The notes under the pieces were generated by a model. It worked only from the letters and a program-made list of their open reading frames with translations. It searched no databases and was not told the origin of the DNA. DNA of 64,000 nt from Catellatospora vulcania (GTDB taxonomy: Bacteria > Actinomycetota > Actinomycetes > Mycobacteriales > Micromonosporaceae). The stretch lies in assembly GCF_009720385.1 (NCBI RefSeq), contig NZ_WARX01000031.1, positions 1 to 64,000 of the forward strand, read 5' to 3'. The position numbers and the translations under genes were made by a program. Each line of letters starts with the position of its first letter. Position 1 is the first letter of the stretch. Shown here piece by piece: positions 1 through 23,783 of this stretch.

Positions 1-3000
1 GCTCGACGGCGGCCAGGGAGTCGAAGCCCAGGTCCTTGAACGCCTGGTCGGCGCGTACCGCGCCCGCGCCTGCCGCGCCGAGCACGGCGGCGGCCTCGGC
101 CCGGACCAGGTCCACGACCAGCCCGCGCCGCTCGGCGGGGGGCGCCGACGCCAGCCGGGCCGCCAGGTCACCGCCGCCGGCGCCGGGCTGGGCGGCGTCG
201 GCCGTGCGCCGGGGTGCGCGGACCCGGCCGCGCAGCAGCGCGGGCAGGTCGCCTGCGGCCGCGCGGGAGGACAGGGCGGGCAGGTCAAGCAGCACCGGGA
301 CCAGCACCGGTTCGTCGCGGCGCAGCGCGGCGTCGAGCAGGGCCAGGCCGGTCGGGGCGGGCAGCGGCACGAGACCGCTGCGGCGGCCACGGCGCGGCTC
401 GTCCGGGGTCGGGCCCGCGCCCATCCCGCCGGCCGCACCGTCCCAGAGGCTCCAGGCCAGGGCGGTGGCGGGCAGTCCGGCCTGCCGTCGCAGCCGGGCG
501 AGGCCGTCCAGGTAGCCGTTGGCGGCGGCATAGTTGGCCTGCCCGGCGTTGCCCAGGGTGCCCGCGATCGAGGAGAACAGCACGAACGCGGCCAGGTCCA
601 GGCCCGCGGTCAGCTCGTGCAGGTGCCACGCCGCGTCCGCCTTGGACCCGAACACCTTGGCCAGCCGCTGCCCGGTCTGTGCTTCGAGCACGCCGTCGTC
701 GAGGGCCCCGGCCGCGTGGATCACCGCCGTCAGCGGCGCGTCTGCCGGTATCCGCGCCAGCACCCCGGCCAGCGCGTCCCGGTCGGACACGTCGGCGGCT
801 TCGACGGCCACCCGTGCGCCGAGTGCCGTCAGCCGCGCGGCCAGTTCCGCCGCGCCGTCCGCGCGCCCGCCTCGGCGCGACGCGAGCACCAGGCCGCGTA
901 CGCCGTGCGCGCGTACCAGGTGCTCGGCGACCAGGCCGCCGAGCGCGCCGGTGCCACCGGTGATCAGCACTGTCCCGTTCGGATCAAGGCCGCGGTCCAG
1001 TGCTGTGGTCTGCGGCGCGACCGCCAGGCGGGGCTGGGTGCCTTCACCTGCCCGCACCGCGAGCTGCGGTTCGTCGGTCGCGAGCAGGCCCGGCAGCGCC
1101 GCCAGGCTGCGCGCGTCGTCGTCGAGGTCGACCAGCGTGAACCGACCGGGGTGCTCGGACTGGGCGGTGCGCACCAGGCCCCATACCGCCGCTGCGGCCG
1201 GGCCGGCGGGTCCGTCGCCGACCGCGCCCCTGGTGACCACGGCCAGCCGTACGCCGTCCAGTGCGGGCTCGGCGAGCCAGGACCGGAGCAGCGTCAGCGT
1301 GCTCGCGGCGAGGTCGCACGCGGCGTCCGGGCCGGGCCCGGCGGGACGCAGGGCAGTGAGCACGACGTCCGGTCGCGTCCCGTCGGCGGTGAGTGCGGCG
1401 AGGTCCGGGTATCCGGGAGCGCCCGGCACCGTGATCCCGGCGCCCAGCACACCCACCCGGGTCTCGGCGGTGGCCGGCGGCAGGTCGATCCAGTCCACCA
1501 CGGACAGGCCCCGGCCGGTGTCCGGCCCGGCGGTCAGCGCAGCCGGGTCGACCGGCCGGAACACCAGCCCGGCCACCTCGGCCACCGGCGCACCCGACGG
1601 GTCGGCCAGGTGCAGGGTGACGGTGTCCGCGGCGGTGACGGTGATCCGCACTCGCAGCGCGGCCGCTCCTGCCGCGTGCAGGCGCAGGCCGTTCCAGGCG
1701 AACGGGAGCAGCAGCCGCTCCCCCGCGCCGACCGGCGAGAAGCTGCTGGCGTGCAGGGCCGCGTCGAGCAGCGCCGGGTGCATCCCGAACCGGGCCGCGT
1801 CGGCGGCCTGCGGCTCGGCGAGCGCGACCTCGGCGTACACGTCGTCACCGGCCGTCCACACTCGCCGCAGGCCCTGGAACGCGGGCCCGTACTCGTATCC
1901 GGCGGCGTGCCGGCGCTCGTAGAAGCCGGTGAGGTCCGTCTCGGTCGTGCCCCGAGGTGGCCACTCCTGCGACCCGGTGGCGACGGTGTCGCCTGCGGGC
2001 GCGGCGGTGCCGGTGGCGTGCCTGGTCCAGGGCGCGTCAGGGTCGCCGTCGGCGCGCGAGTGCACGGCGATCGGGCGTCGTCCGCCCTGGTCGGCGGGGC
2101 CCGCGACGATCCGCAGCTGGCGGGCTCCGGTGGCGGGCAGCACCAGCGGGGCTTCGATGACGAGCTCCTCCACGACGGCTGTGTCGGCCTCGTCGCCGAC
2201 CCGGGCGGCGAGTTCGGCCAGGGCCGCGCCGGGCAGCAGCACCGCGCCGGAGATGGTGTGGTCGGTCAGCCACGGGTGCTCGGCCAGGGTCAGCCGCGCG
2301 GTGCCGACGACACCGCCGTCGGGCAGCGCGACCACCGCGCCGAGCAGCGGATGCCCGCCGGGGGCGAGCCCCGCGCCGATCACGTCGCCCCGGGCCGGGG
2401 CCACGTCGACCCAGTAGCGCTGCCGCTGGAACGGGTAGGTCGGCAGGTCGACCCGCTGCCCGCCGGCCAGCAGCGGGGACCAGTCGACATGATGCCCCCG
2501 CACGTGCAGCCGGGAAACGGCGTCGAGAGCGGCACGCGGCTCGTCGGCGTCGTGGCGCAGCGCGGCCGCGAACCCGACCGAGGTGTCGTCGATGCTCTGC
2601 TGCGCCAGCCCGGTCAGCACCCCGCCCGGTCCGACCTCGACGAACGTGGTGACACCGAGTTCCCTTGCCGCGGTGACGGCGTCGGCGAACCGCACCGGCC
2701 GCCGGACGTTGGCCAGCCAGTACGCCGGGTCGGTCAGCTCGGCGGTGACAGGGCCGCCGGTGACCGTCGAGACGAAGGCAGACCGCGGTTCGCCCAGGTG
2801 CACCGTACGGACCTGCTGGTCGTACTCGGCGATGATCGGGTCCATCAGCGGGGAGTGGAAGGCGTGCGAGACGGTCAGCCTGCGAGCACGCCTGCCGTCT
2901 GCGGCCAGCCGGTCGGCGACGGCCGTGACGTCGGCTTCGGCGCCGGACAGCACCACCGAGTTCGGTGCGTTGACCGCGCCCACCTCGACGGTCGCCGCCA

Positions 3001-5085
3001 GGCCCGCGGCGTCGATCGCGGCCTGCGCTTCGGCTTCACCCGCCTGCACGGCGACCATCGCCCCGCCCTCGGGCAGCGCCTGCATCAACCGGCCCCGCGC
3101 CACCACCAGCCGCGCCGCGTCCGGCAGCGACAGCACCCCGGCCACGTGCGCGGCCGCCAGCTCACCGATCGAATGCCCGATGACCACATCCGGGCGTACA
3201 CCCCACGACTCCAGCAGCCGGAACGTCGCGACCTCCACGGCGAACAACGCGGGCTGGGTGAACTCGGTCCGGTCGAGCAGACCGGCGCCGTCCTCGCCCC
3301 TGGCCTGCGGGTCGGCCGAGTCGGTGACCGTCGGCAGGCCGAACACGATGTCCGTGAGCGACCGGCCCAGCTGCGCGTCCACGTCGGACACGACCGCGTC
3401 GAACGCCGCCGCGAACACCGGGAACGCCTCGTAGAGGCCACGGCCCATACCCACCCGCTGTGCGCCCTGGCCGGTGAACAGCACACCCAGCTTGCCGGGC
3501 GCGGCCGAGCCGGTGACGGCGCCGGCCGGGCTCCCACCGGTGGCCAACATACGCAGCGCCCCGGCAGGGTCCTCGGCGTCGAGCACCACCGCCCGGTAGG
3601 GCAGCGATGCCCGCCCCGACAGCAGGGACCAGGCCACATCGCGTGGCTCGGCATCGGAACCGGCCAGGCGGTCGGCCAGCCGGGCGGCCTGGGCGCGCAG
3701 CGCGTTTTCGGACCGGGCCGACAGCAGCAACGGGACCGGCGCGTCGAGAACCGGTGCGGCCGCCTGGTTCGGGGCCGGGGCGGCCGCACCGGGGGCCTCC
3801 TCGATGATCACGTGGGCGTTGGTGCCGCTGACACCGAACGAGCTGATGCCCGCTCGCCGCGGCGTGCCCGCCGTGGGCCAGTCCTGCGGCGAGGTCAGCA
3901 GCCGCAGTGCACCACTGGACCAGTCCACGTGCGCGGACGGTTCGTCGGCGTGCAGCGTCGCGGGCAGCCTGCCGTGGCGCAGCGCGAGCACCATCTTGAT
4001 CACGCTGGCGACGCCGGCCGCGCCCTGGGTGTGGCCGAGGTTCGACTTGACCGAACCCAGCCACACCGGGTCGTCGGCGGCCCGGTCCTGCCCGTACACG
4101 GCCAGCAGCGCCTGCGCCTCGATCGGGTCGCCGAGCGCGGTGCCGGTGCCGTGCGCCTCGACCACGTCCACATCAGCCGGGGCCAGGCCGCCGGAGGCCA
4201 GCGCGGCGCGGATGACCCGCTGCTGCGACGGCCCGTTCGGGGCGGTCAGGCCGTTGGACGCGCCGTCCTGGTTCACCGCGCTGCCCCGCAGCACGGCAAG
4301 GACCTGGTGCCCGCGGGCGAGCGCGTCGGACAGCCGCTCGACCAGCAGCACACCGACGCCCTCGGACCAGACGGTGCCGTCCGCGCCGGCCCCGAACGCC
4401 TTGCAGCGGCCGTCGGCGGCCAGGCCGCGCTGGCGGGAGAACTCGATGAAGTTGTCCGGGGTCGTCATCACGGTCACGCCGCCGGCCAGTGCCATGTCGC
4501 ACTCCCCGGCCCGCAGCGCCTGCGCGGCCAGGTGCAGCGCCACCAGCGACGACGAGCACGCCGTGTCCACGGTGATCGCCGGACCCTCCAGACCGAGGGT
4601 GTACGCGACCCGGCCCGAGGCGACGCTGCCGGAGACGCCGGTCAGCCGGTAGCCCTCCAGGTCGCCGGGGGCCTGGTGCACGCGTACCGAGTAGTCGTGG
4701 TTGATGACGCCGGTGAACACGCCGACGCTGCGCCCGCGCAGCCCGGACGGGTCGATACCGGCCCGCTCGAACGCCTCCCACGACGTCTCCAGCAGCAGCC
4801 GCTGCTGCGGGTCCATCGCGGTGGCCTCGCGCGGGGAGATGCCGAAGAAGTCGGCGTCGAACTCGGCCATGCCGTCGAGGAACCCGCCCCGGCGCACGTA
4901 CGACGTGCCCGCGTGGTCGGGGTCGGGGTCGAACAGCCGGTCGAGGTCCCAGCCGCGGTCGGCGGGAAAGTCCGAGACGACCTCCGCCCCGGCCGCGAGC
5001 AGCTCCCACAGTTGCTCGGGGGTTTCCACCCCGGCGGGGAAGCGGCAGCTCATGCTCACGATCGCGATCGGCTCGTCCGGGGCGG
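1..5085 (-). other. PKS extension module 2: KS-AT(malonyl)-DH-KR-ACP
   Basis: The KS has VDTACSSS; the AT has GHSIGEL and VSHAFHSP (malonyl type); the DH has [10 protein letters not shown]. No ER lies between DH and KR, and the non-catalytic KR half follows the DH directly. The KR has [18 protein letters not shown] (B-type LDD), FSSIAG and [12 protein letters not shown]. The ACP is cut five residues after its serine by the window edge. Predicted product of this module is a CH=CH unit next to the thioester. Confidence 0.85.
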
Positions 5086-8000
5086 CGACCGCCACCGGCG
5101 CGGCCGCCACGGCGGCGGGCTCCGTGCCGGTCAGCTCCTCGCGCAGGTGCCGGGCCAGCGCCGCCGGGGTCGGGTGGTCGAACACGACGGTCGCGCTCAG
5201 CCGCACCCCGGCCGCGGTGGCGAGCCGGTTGCGCAGTTCCACCGCCGTCAGCGAGTCGAACCCGGTCTCCTTGAACGCCCGGTCGGCGGCGAGCACGTCG
5301 GCGTCCGCGTGGCCGAGCACCGTCGCCGCGTGCAGCCGGACCAGCTCCACAAGCTGCCGTTCCTGCTCCGCGGCGGGCAGCCCGGCGAGTTTGGCGGCCA
5401 GGCCGCCCTGCACCGCCGAAGTCGCCTGGGCGCTGCGGCGGGCCGGGCGCACCAGGCTGCGCAGCAGTGGCGGCACCGGTTCGGCGGCGGCACGGGCGCG
5501 CAGCCCGGCCAGGTCCAGGCGGGCGGGCACCAGCACCGCGTCGGCGGCTCGCAGCCCCGCGCCGAGCAGGCGTCCGCCCTCGGCGGCGTCGATGCCGAGC
5601 ATGCCGTCGCGGCGGTTGCGCTGCAGGGCGGCGTCGCCGAGGCCCGCGGTCAGGTTGCTCGTGTACGACCAGAAGCCCCAGGCCAGCGAGGTGGCGGGCA
5701 GGCCCTGGGCGCGGCGCAGCCGGGCCAGTCCGTCCAGGAAGCCGTTCGCGGCGGCGTAGTTGCCCTGGCCGGGGTTGCCGAACACGCCCGCGGCCGAGGA
5801 GAACAGCACGAACGCCGCCAGGTCCAGGCCCGCGGTCAGCTCGTGCAGGTGCCAGGCCGCGTCGGCCTTCGGCGCGAACACCGCGTCGACCCGTGCCGGG
5901 TCGAGGGCGGCGATGACGCCGTCGTCGATGATCCCGGCGGTGTGCACCACCGCCGTCAGCGGATGGACGGCAGGCACCCCGGCCAGCAGCGCGGCGACCG
6001 CGTCCCGGTCGGACAGGTCGCAGGCGACCACGTCGGCGTGGGTGCCGAGCGCGGCCAGGTCCGCGACCAGCTCGTCGACCCCGTCGGCGGCGGGTCCCCG
6101 GCGGCTGGCCAGCAGGAGCCGGCGCACGCCGTGGGAGGCGGCCAGCTCCCGGGCGACCAGGCCGCCCAGCGCACCGCCGCCGCTGATCAGGACGGTGCCG
6201 TCCGGGTCGAGCGCGGGCGCCACGGTCAGCGCGACCTTGCCGACGTGCCGGGCCTGGCTCAGAAACCGGAACGCGTCCGGGGCGCGGCGCACGTCCCACG
6301 CCGCCACCGGCAGCGGGGTGAGCACGCCTGACTCGAACAGCCCGACGAGGTCGGCGAGCAGCTCGCCGATCCGGTCCGGGCCGGCTTCGCGCAGGTCGTA
6401 CACCTGGTAGGCGACCCCGGGGTACGCGGCGGCGACCTCGGCCGGGTCGCGCACGTCGGTCTTGCCCAGTTCGAGGAACCGGCCGCCGCCCGGCTGCAGT
6501 GACAGGGACGCGTCCGCGAACTCGCCGGACAGCGAGTTGAGCACCACGTCCACCCCGGACCCGCCGGTCGCGGCCAGGAACCGTTCGGCGAACCCGGTCG
6601 TGCGGGACGACGCCAGGTGCGCCTGCTCGACGCCGAGTGCCGTCAGCGCGGGCCACTTGGCGGGGCTCGCCGTGCCGTACACGTGCGCGCCGAGGTGCCG
6701 GGCGAGCTGCACCGCCGCCAGGCCGACCCCGCCGGCCGCGGCGTTGATCAGGATCTTCTCGCCGGATCGCAGCCCGGCGAGGTCGCGCAGGCCGTAGTAC
6801 GCGGTGAGGAACACGATCGGCACGGTCGCGCCCTGCTCGAAGGTCCAGCCCTCGGGCAGCCGGGCGACCAGGCGGCGGTCGGTGACCGCGACCGGGCCGA
6901 AGCCGCCGAACTCGCCGAGCATGCCCATCACCCGGTCGCCCGCGCGCAGGTCGGTGACGTCGGAGCCGACCTCCAGCACGACTCCGGCGGCCTCGCCGCC
7001 CAGACCGGTCTGCCCCGGCACCATGCCGAGCGAGACCAGCACGTCGCGGAAGTTCACCCCGGCGGCCCGCACCGCGATGCGCACCTGCCCGGTCGCCAGC
7101 GGCCCGGCCGCTTCCGGGCTGGGCGCGAGCACCAGGTCGTCGAAGGTGGGGCCGGTGGTGTCGAGCCGCCAGGCGAGCGTGTCCGGCGGCGTCAGCTCCC
7201 CGGTGTCGGCGCGGGTCAGCCGCGGTGCGCTGAGCACGCCCGCGCGGACGGCGAGCTGCGGCTCGCCGGTGGCCGCGGCGGCGGGCAGCGCCTGGGCGGA
7301 CTCGGCAGTGCCGTCGACGTCCACGAGGACGATGCGGTCGGGCTCCTCGGTCTGCGCGGAGCGGGCCAGGCCCCATACCGCCGCGGCGGCCGGGTCGTCG
7401 GCCTCGCCGACGTGGTGCACCGCGACCGCGCCACGGGTGACCAGGACCAGGCGGGTGTCGGACAGGCGCGGTTCGGCGAGCGTCTGCTGGAGCGCGGTCA
7501 GCGCCGCGACGGTCAGCTCCCGGCCGCGCCGGGGGCCTGCCGGTGCCGACGGCGCGGTCAGGTCGACCAGCAGCAGCTGCGGCACGGCCTCGACCGCGGC
7601 GGCGACGGTGGTGTGCCGCGGCGCCTGCGGCAGCAGGGTGCTGTCGCCGAGCACCGCCCAGGTCCGCGTGTCGGAGTCGGGGGTGGGCACGGTCGTCCAG
7701 CCGAAGCGGTACAGGTTCTCCTGCGCCGGGCCGGTCGGCGTGGCCGCCGCGCGGAAGGTGAGCGCGTCGACGGTGGCGACCGGTGCGCCCGCCGGGTCGG
7801 TGACGGCGACGGCCACGGTGTCGGGGCCGGTGGCGGTGGCCCGGACCCGCAGCGCGGTGGCACCGGCGGCGTGCAGCCGCACCCCCGTCCAGGCGAACGG
7901 CAGCGCCAGCGGCGAGGTCAGCGCCGCGCCGGGCGCGCCGAACCCGGTGGCGTGCAGGGCCGCGTCGAGCAGCGCCGGGTGCAGGCCGAACCGGCCCGCG

Positions 8001-11000
8001 TCATCGCGTATCCCGTCGGGCAGGGCGACCTCGGCGAAGACCTCGTCGCCGCGTATCCACACCGCCCGCAGGCCCTGGAAGGACGGCCCGTAGGCGACTC
8101 CTTCCCGGGCCCGGCGGGCGTAGAAGCCGTCCAGGTCCACGGGCTCCGCCCCGGCGGGTGGCCACACGGTGTCGGCGTCGGCTTCGGGGGCGGTGGCGGC
8201 GGACAGCACGCCGGTGGCATGGCGACGCCAGGGTGTGTCCGCGTCCGCACCGGCATGCCGGGCATGCACGGCCACCGGACGGCGGCCCTGCTCGTCCGAT
8301 TCCCCGACGGTGACCTGCAGATTGACGGCGGTCGTCGGCGGCAGCACGAGCGGGGCCTCGATGACGAGCTCCTCGACGGCAGTCGCGCCCACCTCGTCAC
8401 CGGCCCGCACCGCCAGCTCGACCAGGGCCGCGCCGGGCACGACCACCTGCCCGGCGACCGCGTGCTCGGCCAGCCACGGCTGGGCGGCGAGCGAGATCCG
8501 GCCCGTCAGCAGCACCCCGTCCGAGTCGGGCAGGTTCGTGGCCGCGCCGAGCAGCGGATGCGCCACGGAGTCCAGGCCCAGCGCCGTCGCGTCGGACGCC
8601 CCACCGCCGGCGTGCAGCCAGAACCGCTGCCGCTGGAACGGGTACGTCGGCAGCTCCACCGCCGCTCCCCCGGCGGTCAGCGCGGACCAGTCCACGTCAT
8701 GCCCACGCACGTGCAACCCCGCGGCGGCCGCGACGGCCGTGCTCGCCTCGTCGGTGTCGTGCCGCAGCGCCGCCACCAGGCCGACCGCCGGATCGTCGAT
8801 GATCTGCTGGGCCAGCCCGGTCAGCACCCCGCCCGGCCCGACCTCCAGGAACGTCACCACACCCTGGGCGTGTGCGGCGGTGACCGCGTCGGCGAACCGC
8901 ACCGGTCGCCGGATGTTGCCGAGCCAGTAAGCCGGGTCGGTCAGATCTGCGGGCTTGACGGTCTCACCGGTCACCGTGGACACGAACCCGACCTGCGGCT
9001 CGTGCAGCGTCACCGACCGCACGACCTGCTCGAACTCGTCGAGGATCGGGTCCATCAGCGGGGAGTGGAACGCATGCGACACGGTCAGCCTGCGAATACG
9101 CCGGCCGTCGGCGGCCAGCCTGTCCGCGACGGCGGCCACGTCAGCATCGACACCGGACACAACCACCGAGTTCGGTGCGTTGACCGCACCCACCTCCACG
9201 GTCGCCCCGACCCCGGCGGCGTCGATCGCGGCCAGCGCCTCGGCTTCGGCCGCCTGCACCGCGACCATCGCGCCGCCCTCGGGCAGCGCCTGCATCAACC
9301 GGCCGCGTGCGACCACCAGCCGCGCCGCGTCCGGCAGTGCCAGGACCCCGGCCACATGCGCGGCGGCCAGCTCACCGATGGAATGCCCGATGACCAGATC
9401 GGGACGCAGGCCCCACGACTCCAGCAGGCGGAACGTCGCCACCTCGACCGCGAACAGCGCGGGCTGGGTGAACTCGGTCCGGTCCAGCAGACCCGCCGAC
9501 TCCTCGAACACGACCTTTTTCAGCGACCGGCCCAGGTGTGTATCCAGTTCGGACACCGCTGCATCGAACGCCGCCGTGAACACCGGGAACGCCTCATACA
9601 GGCCACGGCCCATGCCGACGCGCTGCGCGCCCTGGCCGGTGAACAGCACCCCGACCTTGCCGCCCGCGGCCTCACCGGTCACCAGGCCGGTCAGGTCACC
9701 TGCTGCGAAGGCCCGCAGCCGCTCCACGACCGCCGCTGATCCGGCACCGGGGTCACCTTCGACAGGTGGCGCGAGCAACACCGCACGCCGGGAGTGCGCG
9801 GCGCGCTGCCGGGTGAGCGTCCACGCGGCGTCCCGCAGCGATGGTCGGTCCTGCTCGCCTGCAGTGTCGAGCACGTCGGCGAGCCGGGCGGCCTGAGCTT
9901 GCAGCGCGGTCTCGGACCTGGCAGACAGCACCAGCGGCAGCGGCTTCTCCGCGGCAGGCGGCAGCGCGGCAGACTCGGCCCGGCCGGTGGCGTCCGCCAC
10001 GGGAACCTGTTCGATGACGACGTGGGCGTTGGTGCCCGAGACCCCGAACGACGACACCGCACCCCGGCGCGGACGGTCCCGCTCCGGCCACGGCCGGGCC
10101 TGCTGGAGCAACTCCACCTGCCCCGCCGACCAGTCCACATGCCCGGTCGGCACATCCGCGTGCAACGTCGCCGGCAGCACCCCGCGCCGCAGCGCCTCCA
10201 CCACCTTGATCACCCCGAGCACCCCGGCCGCCGCCTGGGCGTGCCCGATGTTCGACTTCAGCGACCCCAGCCACACCGGATCGCCCGCAGACCGGGCCTG
10301 CCCATAAGTCGCCAGCAGCGCCTGCGCCTCGATCGGATCACCCAGCGAGGTCCCCGTGCCGTGGCCCTCGATCAGGTCCACGTCGGAGGTCGACAGGCCC
10401 GCCGAGGCGAGCGCGGCGTTGATGACCCGCTGCTGGGACGGCCCGTTCGGGGCGGTCAGGCCGTTGGACGCGCCGTCCTGGTTGACCGCGGTGCCGCGTA
10501 CGACCGCGAGGATCCGGTGGCCCTTGGCCAGCGCGTCGGACATCCGCTCAACGACGAGCAGGCCGGCTCCCTCCGACCACACGGTGCCGTCCGCGCCTTC
10601 GCCGTACGCCTTGCACCGCCCGTCGGCGGCCAGGCCGCGCTGCCGCGAGAATTCGATGAACGACGACGGGGCGGCCATGACGGCGACCCCGCCGGCCAGA
10701 GCCATGTCGCATTCGCCGGACCGCAGCGACTGCGCGGCCAGGTGCAGTGCGACCAGCGACGACGAGCAGGCCGTGTCGACGGTGATGGCCGGGCCCTCCA
10801 GGCCCAGCGTGTACGCGACGCGGCCGGTGACCACGCTGGCCGCGTTGCCGATGCCGAGGTAGCCCTCGGCGCCTTCCGGGGCCCGGTCGAGATTGGTGCC
10901 GTACTCGCGGTACATCACGCCCGCGAACACCCCGACGGGCGCGCCCTTCAGCGCGGTCGGGTCGATCCCGGCGTGCTCGAACGCCTCCCACGCCACCTCC

Positions 11001-14630: not shown

Positions 14631-15356
14631 ATGACCTGGCCCGAAGCACCTTCAGCGCTTCCGGACAACACCGCGGAAAAGCCGGTCGATCAGCATTCCG
14701 CAACCTTTTGGCAAGTTCTTGTCAATAACTTCGAAAAGAAAGCGAGCCCTTCCGTGACCCGCGATTGGACGTCCTTTCGGCTGCTCGGTCCGGACCAGCA
14801 TGCCCACCGCCACGACTGGCCGGCGTCGGCGACCCCGCCCGTGGCCCACCCCGGCCCGGCAGGGACCACCGGCCTGTCCGCGGCCTCCCACCACCTCGCC
14901 CTCGACCTGCTCGCCACCGGCCTGCCCGCCGCCGAGCACCTGCGGGCCGCCGCGACCCACCTGTACCTGCTCGCCGACCTGCTCCGCGCGGACATCCGGG
15001 CGGCGTTCCTGTTCACCGGGTGGCAGCGCTGGAGCGCCGGGCTGACCCCCGCCGCCCGCGTCGCGCTCGGTGAACTGGCCCAGCAGGAGGCCGTACACCT
15101 GCTGCGCAGCGTCGCGCAGGCCTCCGGGCACACGCCGTGGCAGCGCCACGGCGAGCGGCTGCGTACCGCCGCGACCGAGCTGCGCGACGAACCGCAGCTG
15201 CCGTATCTGCTGTTCGACCACGCCCAGAGCACGCACGAGCGGCTCGGCATCGACGCCGCGACTCAGGCCGTGGCGGCCCGCGCGCTGCGCACCGCCCTCG
15301 CGACCGGCGCCGTCGTGCCGGTTCCCGTACGGCAGCCGCTGCCGGCCGCCGCCTGA
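14631..15356 (+). CDS. Unknown helical protein upstream of aminoDHQ synthase
   Basis: 241 residues from ATG 14631. The first 40 codons are less GC-rich than the rest and no good ribosome site precedes this ATG, so GTG 14754 (beginning VTRDWTSF) is an alternative start giving about 200 residues. The body is alanine- and leucine-rich and mostly helical by eye, with many histidines (for example QHAHRHDW, ASHHLALDL). No signal peptide or membrane segment is visible. It ends 17 bp before the rifG homologue and is transcribed with it, divergently from the PKS, so a role in AHBA or ansamycin production is likely. I do not recognise the family. Confidence 0.6.
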   Translation: MTWPEAPSALPDNTAEKPVDQHSATFWQVLVNNFEKKASPSVTRDWTSFRLLGPDQHAHRHDWPASATPPVAHPGPAGTTGLSAASHHLALDLLATGLPAAEHLRAAATHLYLLADLLRADIRAAFLFTGWQRWSAGLTPAARVALGELAQQEAVHLLRSVAQASGHTPWQRHGERLRTAATELRDEPQLPYLLFDHAQSTHERLGIDAATQAVAARALRTALATGAVVPVPVRQPLPAAA

Positions 15357-15373: not shown

Positions 15374-16435
15374 ATGACACACACGGCGACCGCCCCGGAA
15401 CTGGCCACGCCGCCGCACCGGGTCTGGGTCGAGCTGGGACCGCGCAGCTACCCGGTCGAGATCGGGCCCGGCGCGCGCTGGCTGCTGCCGCAGGCCGTGG
15501 CCCGGACCGGGGCCCGGCGGGTGGTCGTGGTGTCGGCCCGCCCGGCCGAGCAGGTGCCCGACCCGGGCGTGCCGTTCCTGTTCGTCCCGGCCCAGGACGG
15601 CGAGGCGCACAAGACCGTGGCCGCCGTCGAGCGGCTGTGCGTGCGGTTCGCCGAGTTCGGGCTGACCCGCCGCGACGCGGTGGTCTCCTGCGGCGGCGGC
15701 ACCACCACCGACACGGTCGGCTTCGCCGCGGCGATCTACCATCGCGGCCTGCCGGTGATCCACCTGCCGACGTCGCTGCTGGCCCAGGTGGACGCCAGCG
15801 TCGGCGGCAAGACGGCGGTCAACCTGCCGGTGGGCAAGAACCTGGTCGGCATGTACTGGCAGCCCAGCGCCGTGCTGTGCGACACCGACCTGCTGGCGAC
15901 CCTGCCGGAACGGGAACGGGTCAACGGCTACGGCGAGATCGCCCGCTGCCACTTCATCGGCGCGGGCGACCTGCGCGGGCTGCCGGTGGCCGAGCAGATC
16001 GCGGCCAGCGTGGCCCGCAAGGCCGCGATCGTCGCCGCCGACGAGCGCGACAGCGGCCTGCGCCACCTGCTCAACTACGGGCACACCCTCGGCCACGCGA
16101 TCGAGCACGCGACCGGCTTCGCGGTCAAGCACGGCGAGGCGGTGGGCATCGGCACGGTGTTCGCCGGGCTGCTGGCCCACGCCGCCGGCCGGATCGACGC
16201 GGCTCGGGCCGAGGAGCACCGGGTCGTGGTGGCCGGATACGGGCTGCCGACCGCGCTGCCCGCGGGTGTCGCCGACAGCGAGCTGGTGGCTCTGATGCGG
16301 CTGGACAAGAAGGCGATGACCGGCGGCCTGAGCTTCGTGCTGGACGCCCCGACCGGTCCGGAACTGGTCGACGACGTGCCCGAGCACCTCGTGCGGCAGG
16401 TGCTGGCGGGGATGCCGCGCGCGCCGCTGGGCTGA
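15374..16435 (+). CDS. rifG: Aminodehydroquinate synthase (AHBA pathway)
   Basis: 353 residues of the 3-dehydroquinate synthase family. It closes the aminoDAHP ring to 5-deoxy-5-amino-3-dehydroquinate in 3-amino-5-hydroxybenzoate biosynthesis. Visible motifs: the NAD-binding GGGTTTDTVGFAAA, the HLPTSLLAQVDASVGGKTAVN block and the metal-ligand segment LNYGHTLGHAIEHATG, followed by KHGEAVGIG. The AHBA context (rifK, rifL, rifM, rifN, rifJ) distinguishes it from primary-metabolism AroB. The start chosen is ATG 15374, preceded by GAGGAG; upstream in-frame starts would overlap the previous gene. The symbol is by homology to the rifamycin cluster. Confidence 0.92.
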   Translation: MTHTATAPELATPPHRVWVELGPRSYPVEIGPGARWLLPQAVARTGARRVVVVSARPAEQVPDPGVPFLFVPAQDGEAHKTVAAVERLCVRFAEFGLTRRDAVVSCGGGTTTDTVGFAAAIYHRGLPVIHLPTSLLAQVDASVGGKTAVNLPVGKNLVGMYWQPSAVLCDTDLLATLPERERVNGYGEIARCHFIGAGDLRGLPVAEQIAASVARKAAIVAADERDSGLRHLLNYGHTLGHAIEHATGFAVKHGEAVGIGTVFAGLLAHAAGRIDAARAEEHRVVVAGYGLPTALPAGVADSELVALMRLDKKAMTGGLSFVLDAPTGPELVDDVPEHLVRQVLAGMPRAPLG

Positions 16436-16477: not shown

Positions 16478-16492
16478 TTGCTGCCCGCGGAC

Positions 16493-17182
16493 TCAGTCCG
16501 GCACGGTGTCGGGCCACAGCTCCAGCAGTTCCAGCGGCCGGCGCAGCACCACGTCGGGCTCGCGGGCCAGCAGCTCGTCGGGATCGGACTCGCCCCACAG
16601 CGCGGCGATCGCCGCCACGCCCGCGCCCCGGGCGCTGACCAGGTCGGTCCACGCGTCACCGACCATGACGGCCGCTACCGCCGGGACCCGCAGCAGCTCC
16701 AGCGCCCGCAGCACGATGTCGGGTGCGGGCTTGGACCGGGCCACCTCGTCCGAGCCGATGACGTGGTCGAACAGGCCGAGCACGCCAAGCTGGTCGAGCA
16801 GCGCACGGGCCCGTGGCCCGCTCTTGCCGGTGGCCACGGCCAGCCCCACGCCCCGCGCTCGCAACGCCACCAGCAGGTCGCGCACCCCGTCGAACAGGCG
16901 CACCCGGTGCGCCAGCCGGTGGCTCTCCCGGACGAACGGGTCCAGCATCGCGTGCGGCAGCCCCATGATGTCCATGATGTCGGGAAAGTAGCGGCCCAGG
17001 TGTCTGCTGTACTCCTCGAACGGCGGCGGCCCGTCGCCGACGACCTCCCGATAGGCGACCGCGAACGCGTCGCGCATCACGTCGAAACTGTCGACCAGCA
17101 CGCCGTCCATGTCGAACACGACGGCCCGCGGCCCGGTCCGCGCGCTCGCGGCGGGGTGGATCCGGGTGGGTGCGATGCTCAT
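16493..17182 (-). CDS. rifM: HAD-family phosphatase of the AHBA pathway
   Basis: 229 residues of the haloacid dehalogenase superfamily, CbbY/Gph type. The nucleophile motif is VVFDMDGVLVDSFD near the N-terminus, then VATGKSGPRA (motif II), KPAPDIVLRALELL and VGDAWTDLVSARGAG (motifs III and IV). In the rifamycin pathway this protein (RifM) releases kanosamine from UDP-kanosamine. The ATG is preceded by AAGGAG at good spacing. It is last in a rifK-rifL-rifM operon, 45 bp after rifL, and faces rifG across a hairpin terminator. Confidence 0.9.
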   Translation of the reverse strand: MSIAPTRIHPAASARTGPRAVVFDMDGVLVDSFDVMRDAFAVAYREVVGDGPPPFEEYSRHLGRYFPDIMDIMGLPHAMLDPFVRESHRLAHRVRLFDGVRDLLVALRARGVGLAVATGKSGPRARALLDQLGVLGLFDHVIGSDEVARSKPAPDIVLRALELLRVPAVAAVMVGDAWTDLVSARGAGVAAIAALWGESDPDELLAREPDVVLRRPLELLELWPDTVPD

Positions 17183-17227
17183 GGCACTCCTTCGATGTCG
17201 GCGGGCCGGGGCGGTGGCCCCGGCCGC

Positions 17228-18307
17228 TCAGCGGGATGCCGCGGCGACCGCCGGTCGGCGGCGCGCGGACTCGTACAGGCGCTCGATGAGGCCGATGGTG
17301 CGCTGCGCCTCGGCCACGGCACGGCCCTGCGCCGACGGGTCGGACAGGATCGGCAGCAGCTGGTCGAGCTGCCGGTCGTACTCGGCGCCGACCGGTTCCC
17401 CGGCCAGCGGCAGCGCCTGGCGCCGACCGTCGCGGACGATGTGCAGCGACGACTCCCCGACCCGGTTGGGGCTGAACCCGAAGGTGCAGCTCAGCTCCAG
17501 CCGGGCCGCGCTGCCCTCGACCACGAGCCGGGTCACGTCCAGCGGCTCGTGCGAGGCCCAGCTCGCGCGCAGCGCGACGGACACCCCGGCGTCGGTGACC
17601 AGGAACCCCCGAGCGGTGTCCTCGACGTCGCCGGACCCGCCCGCGTCGTCACGCCGCCAGGTCGCGCCGCCGTCGCCGACGGCCACGAAATCCTCCGAGG
17701 TGGTGCCGACGACCTGCTGGTACACCGGGTCGCCGAGCACCGGGGACAGCACGTCGAACAGGTGCCAGCCGAGGTCGAGCAGCGCGCCGCCGCCGGCGCG
17801 CCGCCGGTCGGTGAACCAGCCGCCGGCCCCGGGCACACCGCGGGCCCGCACCCACGACGCCTCCACGTGCCGCAGCTCCCCCACCTCCTGGGCGGCCTCG
17901 TAGAGCGCACGGACGTCGGCGCGGTGGCGGGCCGCGCTGCCCGCCAGCAGCCGGCCCCGGCCGACCCGTTCGGCGGCCGCGAGCGCGTCGGCCTCGTCGG
18001 AGGTGAGGCAGACCGGCTTCTCGACGAACACGGTCAGTCCCTGGCGCAGCAGCCGGGCGGCGATGTCCGCGTGCAGATGGTTGGGCACCGCGACCACGGC
18101 CAAATCCACCTCGGCGGGGTCCAGGTGCGCCACGTCGGCCAGCACCCGGACCGCGGGCGCGTCGGCCTGCACGGCCGCCCGCGCCTGCGGATCGGGGTCG
18201 ACCACCGCGGTGACCGCGTACCCGGGATGGCGCAGCAGCCGCTGCAGCCAGATGTGGCGCGCCGCCCAGCCCAGGCCGAGCACCGCGACCCGCACCGGTC
18301 CGGTCAT
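17228..18307 (-). CDS. rifL: Gfo/Idh/MocA-family oxidoreductase of the AHBA pathway
   Basis: 359 residues. The N-terminal Rossmann fold starts VRVAVLGLGWAARHIW and is followed by the family EKPVCLTSDEADAL motif near residues 95-108. In AHBA biosynthesis the RifL homologue oxidises UDP-glucose at C3, and RifK then transaminates the 3-keto sugar to UDP-kanosamine. Its ATG overlaps the stop of the AHBA synthase gene (ATGA at 18304-18307), consistent with translational coupling and with the RifK/RifL pair acting together. Function is assigned from family plus context. Confidence 0.9.
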   Translation of the reverse strand: MTGPVRVAVLGLGWAARHIWLQRLLRHPGYAVTAVVDPDPQARAAVQADAPAVRVLADVAHLDPAEVDLAVVAVPNHLHADIAARLLRQGLTVFVEKPVCLTSDEADALAAAERVGRGRLLAGSAARHRADVRALYEAAQEVGELRHVEASWVRARGVPGAGGWFTDRRRAGGGALLDLGWHLFDVLSPVLGDPVYQQVVGTTSEDFVAVGDGGATWRRDDAGGSGDVEDTARGFLVTDAGVSVALRASWASHEPLDVTRLVVEGSAARLELSCTFGFSPNRVGESSLHIVRDGRRQALPLAGEPVGAEYDRQLDQLLPILSDPSAQGRAVAEAQRTIGLIERLYESARRRPAVAAASR

Positions 18308-19470
18308 GGCAGCGCCGCCAGCGCCTCGGCGACGATGTCGGCGATGTGGTGCATCTGCTGCTCGGTGCCCAGCAGGGTGCGGTGGTGCAGCCAGATCGCG
18401 TCCCGGAACACCTCCTCGGTGACGGGGCAGCGCGCGGCGATCTGCTCGACGGTCTCCGCCGGGGCGGAGTGCTCCCAGAAGCCGTCGCTGCGGTAGATCG
18501 CGCGGAACGCCACGAACGCCGGCAGGCCGCGCGCGATCAGGTCGTCGACCAGCTCGTTGCGCCGCTCCTCGGACAGGCCGGGCACCCGGAACATCGCCAT
18601 GTAGTGCGGGTTGCGGGTGGTGCGCTCGTCGATGCGCTGCGGGACCACCCCGGGCACCGCCGCCAGCAGGCCCGCCAGCAGCGGCCAGCGCTGCTCACGG
18701 GTGTCGATCTGCCCGTCCAGCCGCTTCAGCTGCGCGCGCAGCACGCTGGCGGAGAACTCGTTGAGCCGGAAGTTCGAGCCCGACGTACGGTGGAAGTACT
18801 TGCGGTCGGTCTTGGGACGGCCGCAGCTGTGCTTGAGGAAGCCCAGCTCATAGCTCTCGGCGTCCGGGAACAGCACAGCCCCGCCCTCGCCGGCGGTCAT
18901 CAGCTTGCCGTTCTGGAAGCTCAGCGCGGCGACGCTGCCCAGCTCGCCGATGCGCTTGCCCTGCCATTGCGCGCCGTGCGCGTGCGCGGCGTCCTGCACG
19001 ATCGGCACCCCGCTGTCGGCGGACAGCTTGGCGAGGGCATCCATGTCGGCGACCAGGCCCGCGATGTGCACCGGCATGATCGCCGAGGTACGGTCGGTGA
19101 TCGCCGCGGCGGCGGCCGCGACGTCGATGTTGTAGCTGTCGGGTTCCACGTCGACCGGCACCGCGACCGCGCCCAGCCGCTGCGCGGCCTGTGACGACGA
19201 GATGAAGGTGAACGCGGGCACGATGACCTCGGAGCCGCGGGTGACGCCCAGCACCTCCAGCGCCAGTTCCAGCGCATGCGTGCCGTTGGTGACCGCGAGC
19301 GCGTACGGCGCACCGTGGTACTGCGCGAACTCCTCCTCGAAGAGGTTGACCTCGTTGCCGCCGATACGCCACCACTGGCCCTGCTCCAGGGCGCGGATGA
19401 GGCCTTCGCGCTCGGTGTCGTCATACTGCGGCCAGGCCGGGAATGCGAGGTCCCGAATGGATTCGGTCAT
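18304..19470 (-). CDS. rifK: AHBA synthase / 3-keto-sugar aminotransferase
   Basis: 388 residues of the DegT/DnrJ/EryC1 PLP family, the usual AHBA synthase length. The Schiff-base lysine lies in SFQNGKLMTAGEGGAV, the signature that sets AHBA synthases apart from sugar aminotransferases. PVHIAGLVADMDAL and QDAAHAHGA are further PLP-pocket motifs. RifK has two roles: transamination of UDP-3-ketoglucose (with RifL), and dehydration/aromatisation of aminodehydroshikimate to AHBA. The start is ATG 19470, preceded by AAAGGA; an upstream extension in frame has non-coding character. It heads the K-L-M operon behind a candidate SARP site. Confidence 0.95.
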   Translation of the reverse strand: MTESIRDLAFPAWPQYDDTEREGLIRALEQGQWWRIGGNEVNLFEEEFAQYHGAPYALAVTNGTHALELALEVLGVTRGSEVIVPAFTFISSSQAAQRLGAVAVPVDVEPDSYNIDVAAAAAAITDRTSAIMPVHIAGLVADMDALAKLSADSGVPIVQDAAHAHGAQWQGKRIGELGSVAALSFQNGKLMTAGEGGAVLFPDAESYELGFLKHSCGRPKTDRKYFHRTSGSNFRLNEFSASVLRAQLKRLDGQIDTREQRWPLLAGLLAAVPGVVPQRIDERTTRNPHYMAMFRVPGLSEERRNELVDDLIARGLPAFVAFRAIYRSDGFWEHSAPAETVEQIAARCPVTEEVFRDAIWLHHRTLLGTEQQMHHIADIVAEALAALP

Positions 19471-19549
19471 GGCTGCGACGTCCTTTCCGATGTGGTTGCC
19501 AGAATGGCTTTCACCAGGCAAGCTACCGCAGCGGAAAGTGCTCGTCATG

Positions 19550-19578: not shown

Positions 19579-19662
19579 CGGAAGCTGTTCTCAATAGACT
19601 TTCGAGGTCTGCTGGACGCCTGTCGGATATTGTCCCCCGGCGGCGATCGGAGTGAACAGAAC

Positions 19663-20097
19663 ATGTCCCGGATATTGCTTCTCAACGGCCCGAATCTCGG
19701 CATCCTCGGAAAGCGTGAGCCGGAGATCTACGGCACCGCCACGCTGTCCGACATCGAGGCGGCCGTCGCCGCGGAGGTCGCCGGGCGCGGCTGGAAGCTG
19801 GCCGCGTACCAGCACGAGTCCGAGGGCGAGCTGATCCACACCATCCAGGACAACTACGACACGGTCGGCGCGATCGTGAACCCGGGCGCGCTGATGATCG
19901 CCGGATGGAGCCTGCGCGACGCGCTGGCCAGTTATCCCGCGCCGTTCATCGAGGTGCACCTGTCCAATGTGTGGGCGCGCGAGTCGTTCCGGCACGAGTC
20001 GGTGCTGGCGCCACTGGCCACCGGCCTCATCGCGGGGCTGGGCGCGTTCGGCTACCAGCTGGCGGCCCGCGCCCTGCTGGAACGCATACCGGCCTGA
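19663..20097 (+). CDS. rifJ: Aminodehydroquinate dehydratase (type II DHQase)
   Basis: 144 residues, typical of type II dehydroquinases. It starts ILLLNGPNLGILGKREPEIYG, with the NGPNLxxLG family motif and the catalytic tyrosine in EIYG. Later come QHESEGELIHTIQ, NPGALMIAGWSLRDAL and IEVHLSNVWARESFRHESV, carrying the catalytic histidine and substrate-binding residues. It dehydrates aminoDHQ to aminodehydroshikimate, the substrate of RifK. ATG 19663 was chosen because homology begins there and GGAGTG lies upstream. It is transcribed divergently from rifK. Confidence 0.92.
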   Translation: MSRILLLNGPNLGILGKREPEIYGTATLSDIEAAVAAEVAGRGWKLAAYQHESEGELIHTIQDNYDTVGAIVNPGALMIAGWSLRDALASYPAPFIEVHLSNVWARESFRHESVLAPLATGLIAGLGAFGYQLAARALLERIPA

Positions 20098-20103
20098 CCG
20101 GGT

Positions 20104-20988
20104 TCAGCCCGGCAGCCGGGCCAGCAGCACGGCGCCGGCCAGCGAGGACAGCCCGTCGAGCAGTGCCGCGCGCACCGGCGGGGCCGGGTGGCCGGGCCGC
20201 GCCCAGTGTCCGGCCCGCTCGGCCACCTCGTCGGCGAACCCGGCCAGCCCGGCGGCGAACCCGCCGCCGATCACCACGGCGTCGGTGTGCAGCAGCTCGT
20301 GCAGGCTGACCGCGGCGGCGGCCAGCGCGTCGCAGGTGTCGCCCACTGCCGTGGCCGCCCACGGCTCCCGCGACCGCCAGGCCGTGGCCAGTTCGTCGTA
20401 GGACACCTCGCTGCCGCGCAGGTCCCGGGCCCGGCGCAGGGTGGCGGGCCCGGACGCCAGCGCCTGCAGGCAGCCCGTACGCCCACAGGTGCACCGCGGC
20501 CCGCGCAGGTCCAGCACCATGTGGCCGAGTTCGGCCGAGCCGCGGCCCGGCCCCGGCACGGGCTGCGATCCGATCACGACCGCGCCCCCGATCCCGGTGC
20601 CCACACCGAGGTAGACCGCGTCGTGCAGCCCGGCCGCGTCGGCCTCGGCCAGACCGGCCAGATCCCCGTCGTCACCCCAGCGCACCCGTGCTCCGGGCAG
20701 CAGTGCGCCCAGCGTGCCCAGCAGGTCGACACCCGTCCACCGCGGACGGTTGGGCCACGCGGTGACCACACCATGTGCGTCCAGCGTCGCGGGCACGGCG
20801 ACCCCGGCCGCCTCGATCGGCCCGCCCGCGCGCAGCCCGTCGAGGTGCCCGGCCAGCGCGGCCAGGTCCGCGGCGACGTCCGGCGCACCCGCCGGCCAGG
20901 TGAACACGCCGTCACGCGGCGGCTCGCCGTCGCGGGCCAGCCTCGTGGCGACCTTCGTGCCGCCGATGTCGATGCCCAGGTATGCCAT
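20104..20988 (-). CDS. rifN: Kanosamine kinase (ROK family)
   Basis: 294 residues. The N-terminal GIDIGGTKVATRLA is the ATP phosphate-binding loop of ROK kinases. Further on come WGDDGDLAGLAEA with a catalytic aspartate, GVGTGIGGAVV, SAELGHMVLD, and the zinc-binding CTCGRTGC signature. In AHBA biosynthesis RifN phosphorylates kanosamine at C6. It lies 5 bp after the stop of the SARP-type regulator gene on the same strand and converges on rifJ with 6 bp between them. A general glucokinase is the alternative, but position between AHBA genes favours rifN. Confidence 0.88.
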   Translation of the reverse strand: MAYLGIDIGGTKVATRLARDGEPPRDGVFTWPAGAPDVAADLAALAGHLDGLRAGGPIEAAGVAVPATLDAHGVVTAWPNRPRWTGVDLLGTLGALLPGARVRWGDDGDLAGLAEADAAGLHDAVYLGVGTGIGGAVVIGSQPVPGPGRGSAELGHMVLDLRGPRCTCGRTGCLQALASGPATLRRARDLRGSEVSYDELATAWRSREPWAATAVGDTCDALAAAAVSLHELLHTDAVVIGGGFAAGLAGFADEVAERAGHWARPGHPAPPVRAALLDGLSSLAGAVLLARLPG

Positions 20989-20993
20989 GTCGC

Positions 20994-23783
20994 TCAGGCC
21001 GCCGTCTGCTCGGTCTCGGTCCGGGAGTCACGCGGCACGCCTGCGCCCCGCGCAGCCCGGCCCACCGCCGGGCCCGGTCGCCGCCGAACCGCGCCGGCCG
21101 CGTCGCAGTGCCGGGCCGCCAGCTCCGGCGAGCCGCCCGAGCCCTCCTGCAGCCAGGTCGCGGCACGGTGGTGCTTGTCGGCACGGGCTCCGCGCGGCAG
21201 CTGCCCGTACGCCACCTCGCGCACCACGACGTGCCGGAACAGGTAGATCTGCCCGAACGTGTCGGTGACCGGCCGGCCCGGGGCGCGCCGGAGGAACTCG
21301 CGTGCCTCCAGCGCCCGCAGCCGGTGCGCCACCTCGCCCGGGTCCCGTCCGGACACCGCGGCCACCCCCACCGTGCACACCACCTCCCCGAGCACCGCGG
21401 CATCCTGCAGCAGCGCCTTCTCGGCCGCGGGCAGCGCGTCGAGGCGCGCGGCCACCAGCCGGTGCACGGTCGAGGGCAGCGCCGTTCCGCCGTCTGCGGC
21501 GGCCGCCCCGTCCGCGCCGGGCCGGGCGGCGTCGGCGCGCAGCTGGCGCACGTACTCGACGGCGAACCTCGGCACGCCGCCGACCCGCGCCGGCAGGTCG
21601 GCCGGAAGCACCACCGGGTCCGCGCCGGACGGACCCTCCCCCAGCACGGCCAGCAGGTCACGGACGGCGTCGTCCGGCAGCGGGTCCAGGGTCAGCACGG
21701 TCGCCGCGGCGGTGCCGCCGCCCCAGTACGGCCGGCGCTCCAGCAGCTCGGCGCGGGCGGTCACCACCACGAGCAACGGCAGCGACACCGACCGGCCCAC
21801 CAGGTCCTCGATGTAGTCCAGCAGCCGGCCCTCGGCACGGTGCACGTCCTCGAACACCACCACCAGCGGAGCTGCGTCGGCGAACCGCTCGACGAGCCGG
21901 TCCACCCCGGTCGCGGCGGCAGCGCCGTCGTCGACCAGCGCGAGCCGGTGCGCCGCGGCGTCCTCGCACCGCCCGAACACCGGACGTGACGGCCCGGCCT
22001 CCAGCGTCCGGCCCAGCTCCTCCAGCACCGCGCTCAGCCGCTCACCGCCCAGCGTGCCGACTTGCACCACCGCGCAGCGGGCCTGGACGGCACCGGGAAA
22101 CTCGGGATCGGCCGCCGCGGCACGGCGGCAGAACTCGGCGACCAGCCCGGTCTTGCCGATGCCCGGTTCCCCCAGCACCGTGGCGAGGTGCGCCCGCCGC
22201 TGCCGCGCCACGTCACCGAGCATGCAGCTGAGCAGGCGCAGCTCGTCGGCACGGCCGAACAGCGGCAGGCAGGGCTCGTCTGTCGCGAGGGCCGGGCCCT
22301 GCACCGCCCAGCCCGCCAACCCGTCGAGCGGGGCGAAAGCGAACGCGTGCCTGGTCACCGCCCGGGTCGTGTCGCACACCCGCACCTGTCCCGCGACCGC
22401 CGCGCCGAGCAGCAGCAGTGAGGTGTCCAGCACACCGCCGTGGACCTCGGCCGGGCCGGCGCCCTCAGCGGGCCGGCTGACCACCGCGTCGCCGCTGGCC
22501 ACCGCCACCCGGACGGCCAACCGCGGGGCCGATCCCGGCTGCTCGGCGGGATCGAGCCTGCGCAGCAGTTCGCGGGCCGCTTGCACGGCCCGCTCCGCGT
22601 CGTCGTCGCGGGTGCGGGGCACGCCGAACCAGGCCGTCCACAACGAGCCGACGACCTCCCTGCGCACCGACCCCCCGAACAGGCCGACCACCGACTCGAC
22701 GGTCTCGTCCAGCACCTGCCAGGCTTCCTGAAGGTCCTCCGGATCGTGCTCCTGGCCGGAGTCGGCCATCCCCGCACGTAGCAGCAGCACCGTGACGGGC
22801 TTGCGCTCGGCCATCGGCGGCGGGTCGGCCTCCGTCGCCGCTGCCAGGTGCAATCCGGCCGGGCGGGCCCGGCGCCGGAACTCCGGCTGGCCGGCCGGAG
22901 CCGCCGGGCCGGCGGCCGGCATCCGGGCCGGAACGGCCACCGCGGGCGACGCCGGGCCGGCGGCGGGCACCGCGAGCAGCACCGCGTCGTGGGCCAGGAT
23001 CGCCCGTTCCAGATCCTGCAACTGCCGGCTCGGGTCGAGACCCAGCTGCTCGATGAGCTGCGTGCGGGTACGGCGATACACGCTGAGCGCGTCCGCCTGC
23101 CGGCCCGCCCGGTACAGGGCGAGCATCAGGTTGCCGGCGAGCCGTTCCCGGGGCGGCTGCGCGCCACCGCCCTGGGCCGCCTCGAGCCGGGTGATGACCT
23201 CGTGGTGGCGGCCCAGGGCGAGCAGCGCCGCGGCGTGGTCCTCCAGCGCCGCGAGCCGCGCGTTCTGCTCCGCCGCGAGCTCCGGCCAGGCGATCCCGGC
23301 CTCGGCGAGGTCGGACAGCACCGGCCCACGCCACAGCGCCAGGGCCTGACCCAGCACCTCTGCCGCCCGCGCCCACTCGGCGGCGGCCAGCAGGTCGCGG
23401 CCGGCCGCGGCGAGCTGGTGGAAGCGCCACCGGTCGATCCGCTCCGGAGGCGCCTGCAGCAGGTAGCCGGGTGTGCGGGTGGCCAGTACGACGTCGTCGG
23501 CGCCGAGTTCGGTGACACCCCGCGCCGCGGCGATGGCGTTCTGCAGCATCTTGCGCGCGGTCGCCGGCGGTTCCTCGCTCCACAGCGCGCGGATCAGGTC
23601 ACTGGTCGCCACCACCGCGTTGGCGTGCAGCAGCAGCTTGCCCAGCACGGCTCGCTGATGCAGGCCCCGCAGCGGCACCGGCACGTCGCCCAGCCGCACC
23701 TCCAGCGGGCCGAGCAGGCTGAACACGAGCCCGTCCGGCACGACAGGTCCCGCCGTCGGCCCGTGGCCGCCCTCGACCGTCAT
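20994..23783 (-). CDS. SARP/BTAD transcriptional activator with cyclase-like and AAA ATPase domains, C-terminally short
   Basis: 929 residues from ATG 23783 (GGAAGG upstream). Residues about 15-110 form an OmpR-like winged helix and about 115-265 a bacterial transcriptional activator domain (RTRTQLIEQLGLDPSRQLQDLE). A nucleotide-cyclase-like domain near 325-510 lacks a recognisable catalytic metal-binding motif (VLLLRAGMAD in place of FADLxGFT). An AAA domain follows (Walker A GEPGIGKT near 550). The protein stops soon after ELAARHCDAAGAV, where relatives usually continue into TPR repeats, so the tail looks lost. Its gene directly precedes rifN. It is the likely pathway activator acting on the heptamer repeats. 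Confidence 0.82.
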   Translation of the reverse strand: MTVEGGHGPTAGPVVPDGLVFSLLGPLEVRLGDVPVPLRGLHQRAVLGKLLLHANAVVATSDLIRALWSEEPPATARKMLQNAIAAARGVTELGADDVVLATRTPGYLLQAPPERIDRWRFHQLAAAGRDLLAAAEWARAAEVLGQALALWRGPVLSDLAEAGIAWPELAAEQNARLAALEDHAAALLALGRHHEVITRLEAAQGGGAQPPRERLAGNLMLALYRAGRQADALSVYRRTRTQLIEQLGLDPSRQLQDLERAILAHDAVLLAVPAAGPASPAVAVPARMPAAGPAAPAGQPEFRRRARPAGLHLAAATEADPPPMAERKPVTVLLLRAGMADSGQEHDPEDLQEAWQVLDETVESVVGLFGGSVRREVVGSLWTAWFGVPRTRDDDAERAVQAARELLRRLDPAEQPGSAPRLAVRVAVASGDAVVSRPAEGAGPAEVHGGVLDTSLLLLGAAVAGQVRVCDTTRAVTRHAFAFAPLDGLAGWAVQGPALATDEPCLPLFGRADELRLLSCMLGDVARQRRAHLATVLGEPGIGKTGLVAEFCRRAAAADPEFPGAVQARCAVVQVGTLGGERLSAVLEELGRTLEAGPSRPVFGRCEDAAAHRLALVDDGAAAATGVDRLVERFADAAPLVVVFEDVHRAEGRLLDYIEDLVGRSVSLPLLVVVTARAELLERRPYWGGGTAAATVLTLDPLPDDAVRDLLAVLGEGPSGADPVVLPADLPARVGGVPRFAVEYVRQLRADAARPGADGAAAADGGTALPSTVHRLVAARLDALPAAEKALLQDAAVLGEVVCTVGVAAVSGRDPGEVAHRLRALEAREFLRRAPGRPVTDTFGQIYLFRHVVVREVAYGQLPRGARADKHHRAATWLQEGSGGSPELAARHCDAAGAVRRRPGPAVGRAARGAGVPRDSRTETEQTAA

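Follow-up and report, generated by a model that had tools for sequence, protein, structure and literature searches.

Which compound is specified by the AHBA-primed polyketide synthase cluster that runs off the left end of this DNA, and is its scaffold a new one? The window, the whole 64,000-nucleotide stretch analysed here, is the start of contig C19 (C19:1-64000) in the genome of Catellatospora vulcania, which comprises 8.83 Mb in 36 contigs. The original prediction proposed an ansamycin-type AHBA cluster with an unusual aryl-CH2-CH2-CH=CH start, made from two malonyl units. Judged from its sequence, the locus is very probably a pentaketide-ansamycin cluster that is split over two contigs of the same genome, its left half being on C19 in the window and the remainder on C13.

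AHBA cassette and its flank

The genes for AHBA supply lie to the right of the polyketide synthase gene. The rifK homologue (AHBA synthase; 18304..19470, minus strand) scored 610 bits against the AHBA synthase structure 1b9h, and the rifM homologue (phosphatase of AHBA synthesis; 16493..17182, minus) scored 333.2 bits with the AHBA-associated model TIGR01454, above its curated cut-off of 246.65. The set also includes the homologues of rifL (oxidoreductase of the GFO_IDH_MocA family; 17228..18307, minus), rifJ (type II aminodehydroquinate dehydratase; 19663..20097, plus) and rifN (ROK-family kanosamine kinase; 20104..20988, minus), the latter two being recognized by enzyme-family matches. The rifG homologue (aminodehydroquinate synthase; 15374..16435, plus), which is 71-72% identical in six related genomes, reached 270 bits with the aroB family against the aroB cut-off of 305. 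Both this protein and the rifH homologue on C13 score under the curated cut-offs of primary-metabolism models, as expected for variants of the amino pathway, a fit that is not a proof. With these matches the ansamycin-type nature of the cluster, including all six rif homologues named at the outset, was confirmed.

Counterparts of rifG, K, L, M and N, with 50-72% identity (56-57% for rifL), adjoin the amide synthase gene in three rifamycin-type Amycolatopsis loci (L090, L099 and L119). No rifJ was found in the amide-synthase flanks of these three loci; it is present in the Streptomyces loci L065-L067. The cassette is followed by a gene for a SARP/AfsR-type pathway regulator (20994..23783, minus; BTAD and AAA_16 domains, NCBIfam match), position 23783 belonging to its start codon. 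A conserved protein is encoded beside rifG (14631..15356, plus). It gave no match in Pfam, and homologues sharing an FLF..WQ motif are found in five related clusters, those of Streptomyces sp. TSRI0107, S. dysideae RV15, S. adustus NBRC 109810 and two genomes from the genus of Micromonospora okii (G155 and G275), with 33-40% identity over 128-160 residues where BLAST gave alignments. Farther to the right, genes for a class II aldolase, a HAD phosphatase, DhaL and DhaK stand in a row (48057-51346, plus), apparently a sugar operon without relation to the cluster.

Loading didomain and first two modules

PKS1 (2..14422, minus) is incomplete in the window. Its open frame of 4807 codons runs from 14422 to base 2, where it leaves the contig, and by Pfam and phmmer its domains are ordered A-ACP0, KS-AT-DH-ER-KR-ACP and KS-AT-DH-KR-ACP. 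The AMP-ligase (A) domain of the loading didomain (12908..14377, minus; PF00501 with 321.6 bits, PF13193) has CoA ligases as its nearest solved relatives, and AHBA is its predicted substrate because the AHBA cassette is present. The loading ACP0 (11330..11572, minus; phmmer) carries the motif GFTSL. Here and in five relatives compared, GFTS stands in place of the usual GFDS, and it may be a mark of AHBA loading modules. Phmmer picked up a KR-like stretch in the loading modules of TSRI0107, S. adustus, S. dysideae, G275 and G155; here it detected none, and the stretch is read as degenerate by analogy with KR0 of the tropansamycin (tpm) cluster.

Module 1 consists of KS (10133..11296; TACSSS, EGHGTGT and KSNIGH), malonyl-type AT (8678..9664), DH (7718..8572, with a 20-residue motif stretch), ER (6218..7117), KR (5666..6199; IDD motif, B-type reading) and ACP (5123..5377), all on the minus strand. 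Module 2 follows on the same strand with KS (3923..5092; grouping with KS2 of the relatives), malonyl-type AT (2468..3502), DH (1550..2356), B-type KR (428..976; LDD motif) and the first part of its ACP (2..142), the remainder of which is on C13. The Pfam and phmmer calls agree with the earlier description of module 1 as fully reducing and module 2 as DH-KR.

Joining of the two contigs

Three copies of the 24-base sequence that opens the window are present in this genome, at the start of C19, at the start of C13 and within the ACP3 sequence on C13. When C19 and C13 are overlapped by these 24 bases the frame is kept, and reading on completes ACP2 and a C-terminal tail of PKS1, which ends at C13:383. 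In a comparison set of 18 proteins, the last 65 residues of this C13-derived tail matched the PKS1 C-termini of all five relatives with E values of 7e-6 to 2e-4, while the other matches, PKS1 itself aside, had E values of 0.39 or worse. The overlap is 24 bases only and lies within a repeated ACP motif, and the count of four modules in this genome depends on it. The region left of position 1, to which the original prediction had pointed for further modules, is thus located on C13, bringing the module total to four.

If modules had been lost at this break, the chain would be longer and the compound would not be a pentaketide ansamycin. The break does fall within an ACP that differs very little from ACP3, in a cluster whose four ATs are 81-87% alike, so that assembly would be hard. 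A DNA search of the same genome, however, gave strong PKS matches on C19 and C13 only, exactly these three PKSs are present in three relatives with contiguous genes, and the stub on C13 carries a tail of the PKS1 type. On the last two grounds the longer chain was set aside, and we regard it as most improbable.

Remainder of the cluster

PKS1 is followed on C13 by PKS2 (C13:398-5872; KS-AT-DH-KR-ACP) and PKS3 (C13:5884-9003; KS-AT-ACP, without TE), both assigned by Pfam and phmmer. The catalytic motifs of KS, DH and KR are present where expected in the PKSs of the cluster. Directly after PKS3 lies the gene for a GdmF-type amide synthase (C13:9020-9790; match to GdmF at 6.6e-66), in which the Cys/His/Asp positions are conserved as C73, H111 and D126. 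Downstream of this are genes for an FAD aromatic hydroxylase (C13:9787-11442), a WYL-domain regulator, an alpha/beta hydrolase, an MFS exporter (C13:14282-15712, minus), a MonCI/Lsd18-family flavoenzyme (C13:16282-17889, minus; assigned by PDB matches), an EncM/BBE-like FAD oxidase (C13:17969-19471, minus) and the homologues of rifI (C13:19617-20417, minus) and rifH (C13:20410-21762, minus; class II DAHP synthase family, 561.9 bits, cut-off 614.7). Beyond rifH, C13 encodes a phosphoesterase, a phosphopantetheinyl transferase, a type II thioesterase and a LuxR-type regulator. Among the genes anticipated on the left, those for amide synthase and aminoDAHP synthase (rifH) were found, but no transketolase gene was among the called genes from window position 27716 leftwards through C13:26884.

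AHBA synthase with its cassette, the A-ACP loading didomain, a NAT-type amide synthase and a PKS3 without TE are the features of an AHBA-primed ansamycin cluster, and the four extension modules, two on C19 and two on C13, are those of a pentaketide ansamycin.

Specificity of the AT domains

The motifs GHSIGE and HAFH, as well as a further 10-residue stretch, are present in all four ATs of the cluster. A tree was built with 60 ATs of this cluster and related ones, leaving out ATs less than 88 residues from the start or less than 205 from the end of the called protein. The four ATs of the cluster fell on the side that contained every HAFH AT (38); opposite them stood 21 YASH/YGSH ATs and one for which no motif was read, and the split was supported at 1.0. 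A PDB search with AT4 retrieved mixed PKS ATs and does not discriminate the substrate. As a control for the motif, the last two modules in the three Amycolatopsis loci, one of them from A. rifamycinica, were examined and carried HAFH and then YASH, the order to be expected of modules 9 and 10 in the rifamycin line. These loci resemble the present cluster in their AHBA genes and in the amide synthase following the last PKS, but their two visible modules are read as malonyl and then methylmalonyl, and their amide synthases are 36-37% identical to that of C. vulcania. The rifamycin-type line has ten modules.

Methylmalonyl specificity of the ATs in this cluster is contradicted by motif and tree. 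The malonyl assignment originally made for both ATs of the window has therefore held against the AT analysis that might have overturned it. All four extenders are read as malonyl, giving the chain AHBA-C2-C2-C2-C2, with the understanding that AT motifs predict a substrate and fall short of proof.

Relatives of the same and other designs

When 354 genomes from this bacterial family were searched for the amide synthase at E<=1e-40, 17 were positive, including that of the window. The best match was from Hamadaea tsunoensis DSM 44101 (72%); in the rpoB tree the genus of the window adjoins the genus g37, and then Hamadaea. Named genomes were scanned as well; of the 55 loci so identified 28 were annotated, and amide synthases of 66-69% identity were found in TSRI0107, S. 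dysideae and S. adustus. PKS1, PKS2 and PKS3 are on one contig in Hamadaea tsunoensis, TSRI0107 and S. adustus, each with HAFH in four of four ATs and with ER confined to module 1. In S. dysideae, PKS1 and PKS2 are interrupted by runs of N; one of the four ATs is readable (module 4, HAFH) and the design is otherwise similar. A reading of the S. dysideae genes as broken was wrong, the stretch containing these runs of N. By their predicted specificity, all-malonyl lines occur at least in these strains, a minority of the 55 loci having been followed upstream.

Other designs were found as well, including C2-C2-C3-C3 in G275, with YASH in ATs 3 and 4, C3-C3-C2-C2 in G155, and eight modules with mixed ATs in S. 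seoulensis, in which module 1 is malonyl-type with ER. The aryl-CH2-CH2-CH=CH start does follow from the domains, but it does not distinguish the cluster, the first two modules being shared by G275. As a hallmark the start is also contradicted by the malonyl, ER-containing module 1 of S. seoulensis. What distinguishes it, to be found beyond the window, is the combination of only four modules, four malonyl-type ATs and the epoxidase-family gene. A match to a characterized cluster, which would have overturned the original prediction, did not appear, in that the literature searched names no product for the clusters with this module order.

The gene arrangement in Hamadaea tsunoensis (G135) is more scattered. 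Its AHBA genes are dispersed over contigs C2 and C7 of that genome (L039-L042 and L061-L064), with rifJ, K, L, M, N and a SARP gene on C7 and rifG on C2 about 32 kb from PKS1, and the amide synthase gene lies about 15 kb from PKS3.

Epoxidase-family flavoenzyme

The product of C13:16282-17889 matched MonCI (1.3e-60) and Lsd18/LasC (1.4e-51) in PDB, and at E<=0.001 chains of MonCI and Lsd18/LasC, 9 sequences, were the only matches. For both MonCI and Lsd18, the accessible parts of the sources report epoxidation of polyene polyketides. By this similarity the enzyme is probably an olefin epoxidase, and the predicted ansa chain would offer it two olefins. Flavin epoxidases as such are not new to ansamycin pathways, since that of ansamitocin also has one, Asm11.

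Orthologs with 72-73% identity are present in all four relatives (Hamadaea, TSRI0107, S. dysideae and S. adustus), and none was detected in G275 or G155 at E<=1e-150. The gene is present in the flanks of two (L065 and L066) of the 28 annotated loci. Homologues at E<=1e-40 occur in 260 of the 354 family genomes, which rules out the gene as a marker exclusive to the design; the best of those outside the two clusters is 59% identical. It is only the close ortholog that tracks the four-malonyl design.

Predicted pathway and product

From the gene content, domain order, AT type, in-frame join and shared design described above, we can predict the substrate, the chemistry and the size of the ring, and also where and in which order it would be oxidized. 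AHBA from the cassette would be activated by the A domain and loaded onto ACP0, and the four modules would each add one malonyl unit. Module 1 would carry out full reduction (CH2-CH2), modules 2 and 3 would leave E double bonds and module 4 a ketone, and the predicted chain is aryl-CH2-CH2-CH=CH-CH=CH-CO-CH2-CO. The GdmF-type amide synthase would close it to a 13-membered (by counting), meta-bridged, unbranched ansa dienone lactam of C15H15NO3, with [M+H]+ at 258.1125. Probable oxygenation of the arene by the FAD aromatic hydroxylase would give C15H15NO4 (274.1074), and probable epoxidation of an ansa-chain olefin by the MonCI/Lsd18-family enzyme would give C15H15NO5 (290.1023). The epoxide could then be opened by the phenol to form an ether.

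We tentatively propose, with somewhat less than even confidence, that this is a new scaffold, in which four malonyl units form an unbranched 13-membered dienone, the ring olefins are epoxidized by a polyether-type (MonCI/Lsd18) flavoenzyme and the arene phenol closes an ether. If true, polyether chemistry would operate within an ansamycin, and would be conserved across three genera, in no fewer than four strains and probably in a fifth.

Comparison with known pentaketide ansamycins

The known clusters were compared by their published descriptions rather than by their sequences. Seven pentaketide scaffolds are told apart by their extender units (PMC13000494), and the pattern found here differs from those of two of the seven, tropansamycin and cebulactam, these being the two comparable. 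The tropansamycin cluster tpm of Streptomyces sp. LR53 (PMC13000494) is similar in having AHBA genes, three PKS genes (tpmA-C) and genes for an amide synthase, the aromatic hydroxylase TpmE and regulators of the SARP and LAL types; it likewise uses four extender units, and its loading KR is inactive. In contrast to the four C2 units here, its extenders are C3-C2-C3-C3; its DH1 is inactive and OH is kept at C7, whereas module 1 here contains ER; and its epoxidation is assigned to the P450 Tpm16, whereas a flavin epoxidase-family gene is present here. The cebulactams, as far as the available part of PMC13302746 describes them, are also macrolactams from AHBA and a PKS, with a 13-membered ring in cebulactam A3, but contain methylmalonyl as well as malonyl units.

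The cluster might instead be that of compounds already described, most plausibly the catellatolactams, the mechanism being the same and the molecule known. The probability of this is substantial, though well short of even. The catellatolactams are ansamacrolactams from a Catellatospora strain and are counted in PMC13000494 among the pentaketide scaffolds distinguished by extender units. The present genome is from the same genus, and among its 11 genomes examined it is the only one with an amide synthase of this type, the other 10 having none at E<=1e-40. Against this, no description of the catellatolactam extender pattern was found in the literature searched.

Microansamycin (mas, BGC0001666), as mentioned in the literature searched, is likewise a pentaketide ansamycin of the Micromonosporaceae with an amide synthase and a pathway regulator. 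We infer that G275 is of the mas type, its order of amide synthase, PKS3, PKS2 and SARP fitting the numbering of mas10 (amide synthase) and mas13 (regulator). The present cluster, from the same bacterial family and with its first two modules as in G275, could then be expected to use methylmalonyl in the last modules. This is very unlikely, because ATs 3 and 4 are malonyl-type here and YASH in G275, and G275 lacks an ortholog of the epoxidase at E<=1e-150; if G275 is of the mas type, microansamycin is C2-C2-C3-C3 without a close epoxidase ortholog, unlike the cluster of the window.

The new scaffold, put forward above, would join a small group. Pentaketide ansamycins are few, and one subgroup of them inhibits Xanthomonas oryzae and Staphylococcus aureus (PMC13000494). 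The conserved family described here, which the literature searched links to no product and for which an exact mass can be predicted, offers an immediate target for discovery.

Homogenization of the AT domains

The four ATs, while 81-87% identical among themselves, are at best 60-62% identical to those of the relatives compared. ATs group by genome and not by module, including the methylmalonyl pairs of G275 and G155. This pattern is one of homogenization within the cluster, that is, concerted evolution as read from the sequences. Concerted evolution is described as widespread for ATs in the available part of PMC4256081. Such homogenization can account for both the uniform extender pattern and the break in the assembly. 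The natural four-module series C2-C2-C2-C2, C2-C2-C3-C3 and C3-C3-C2-C2, in which ATs vary between clusters and are homogenized within each, is of help for studying how extender choice changes in evolution. KS2 groups across genomes, being 74-79% identical to KS2 of other genomes against 72-73% to its own neighbours, while KS1, KS3 and KS4 are closer to one another, with 80-82% identity.
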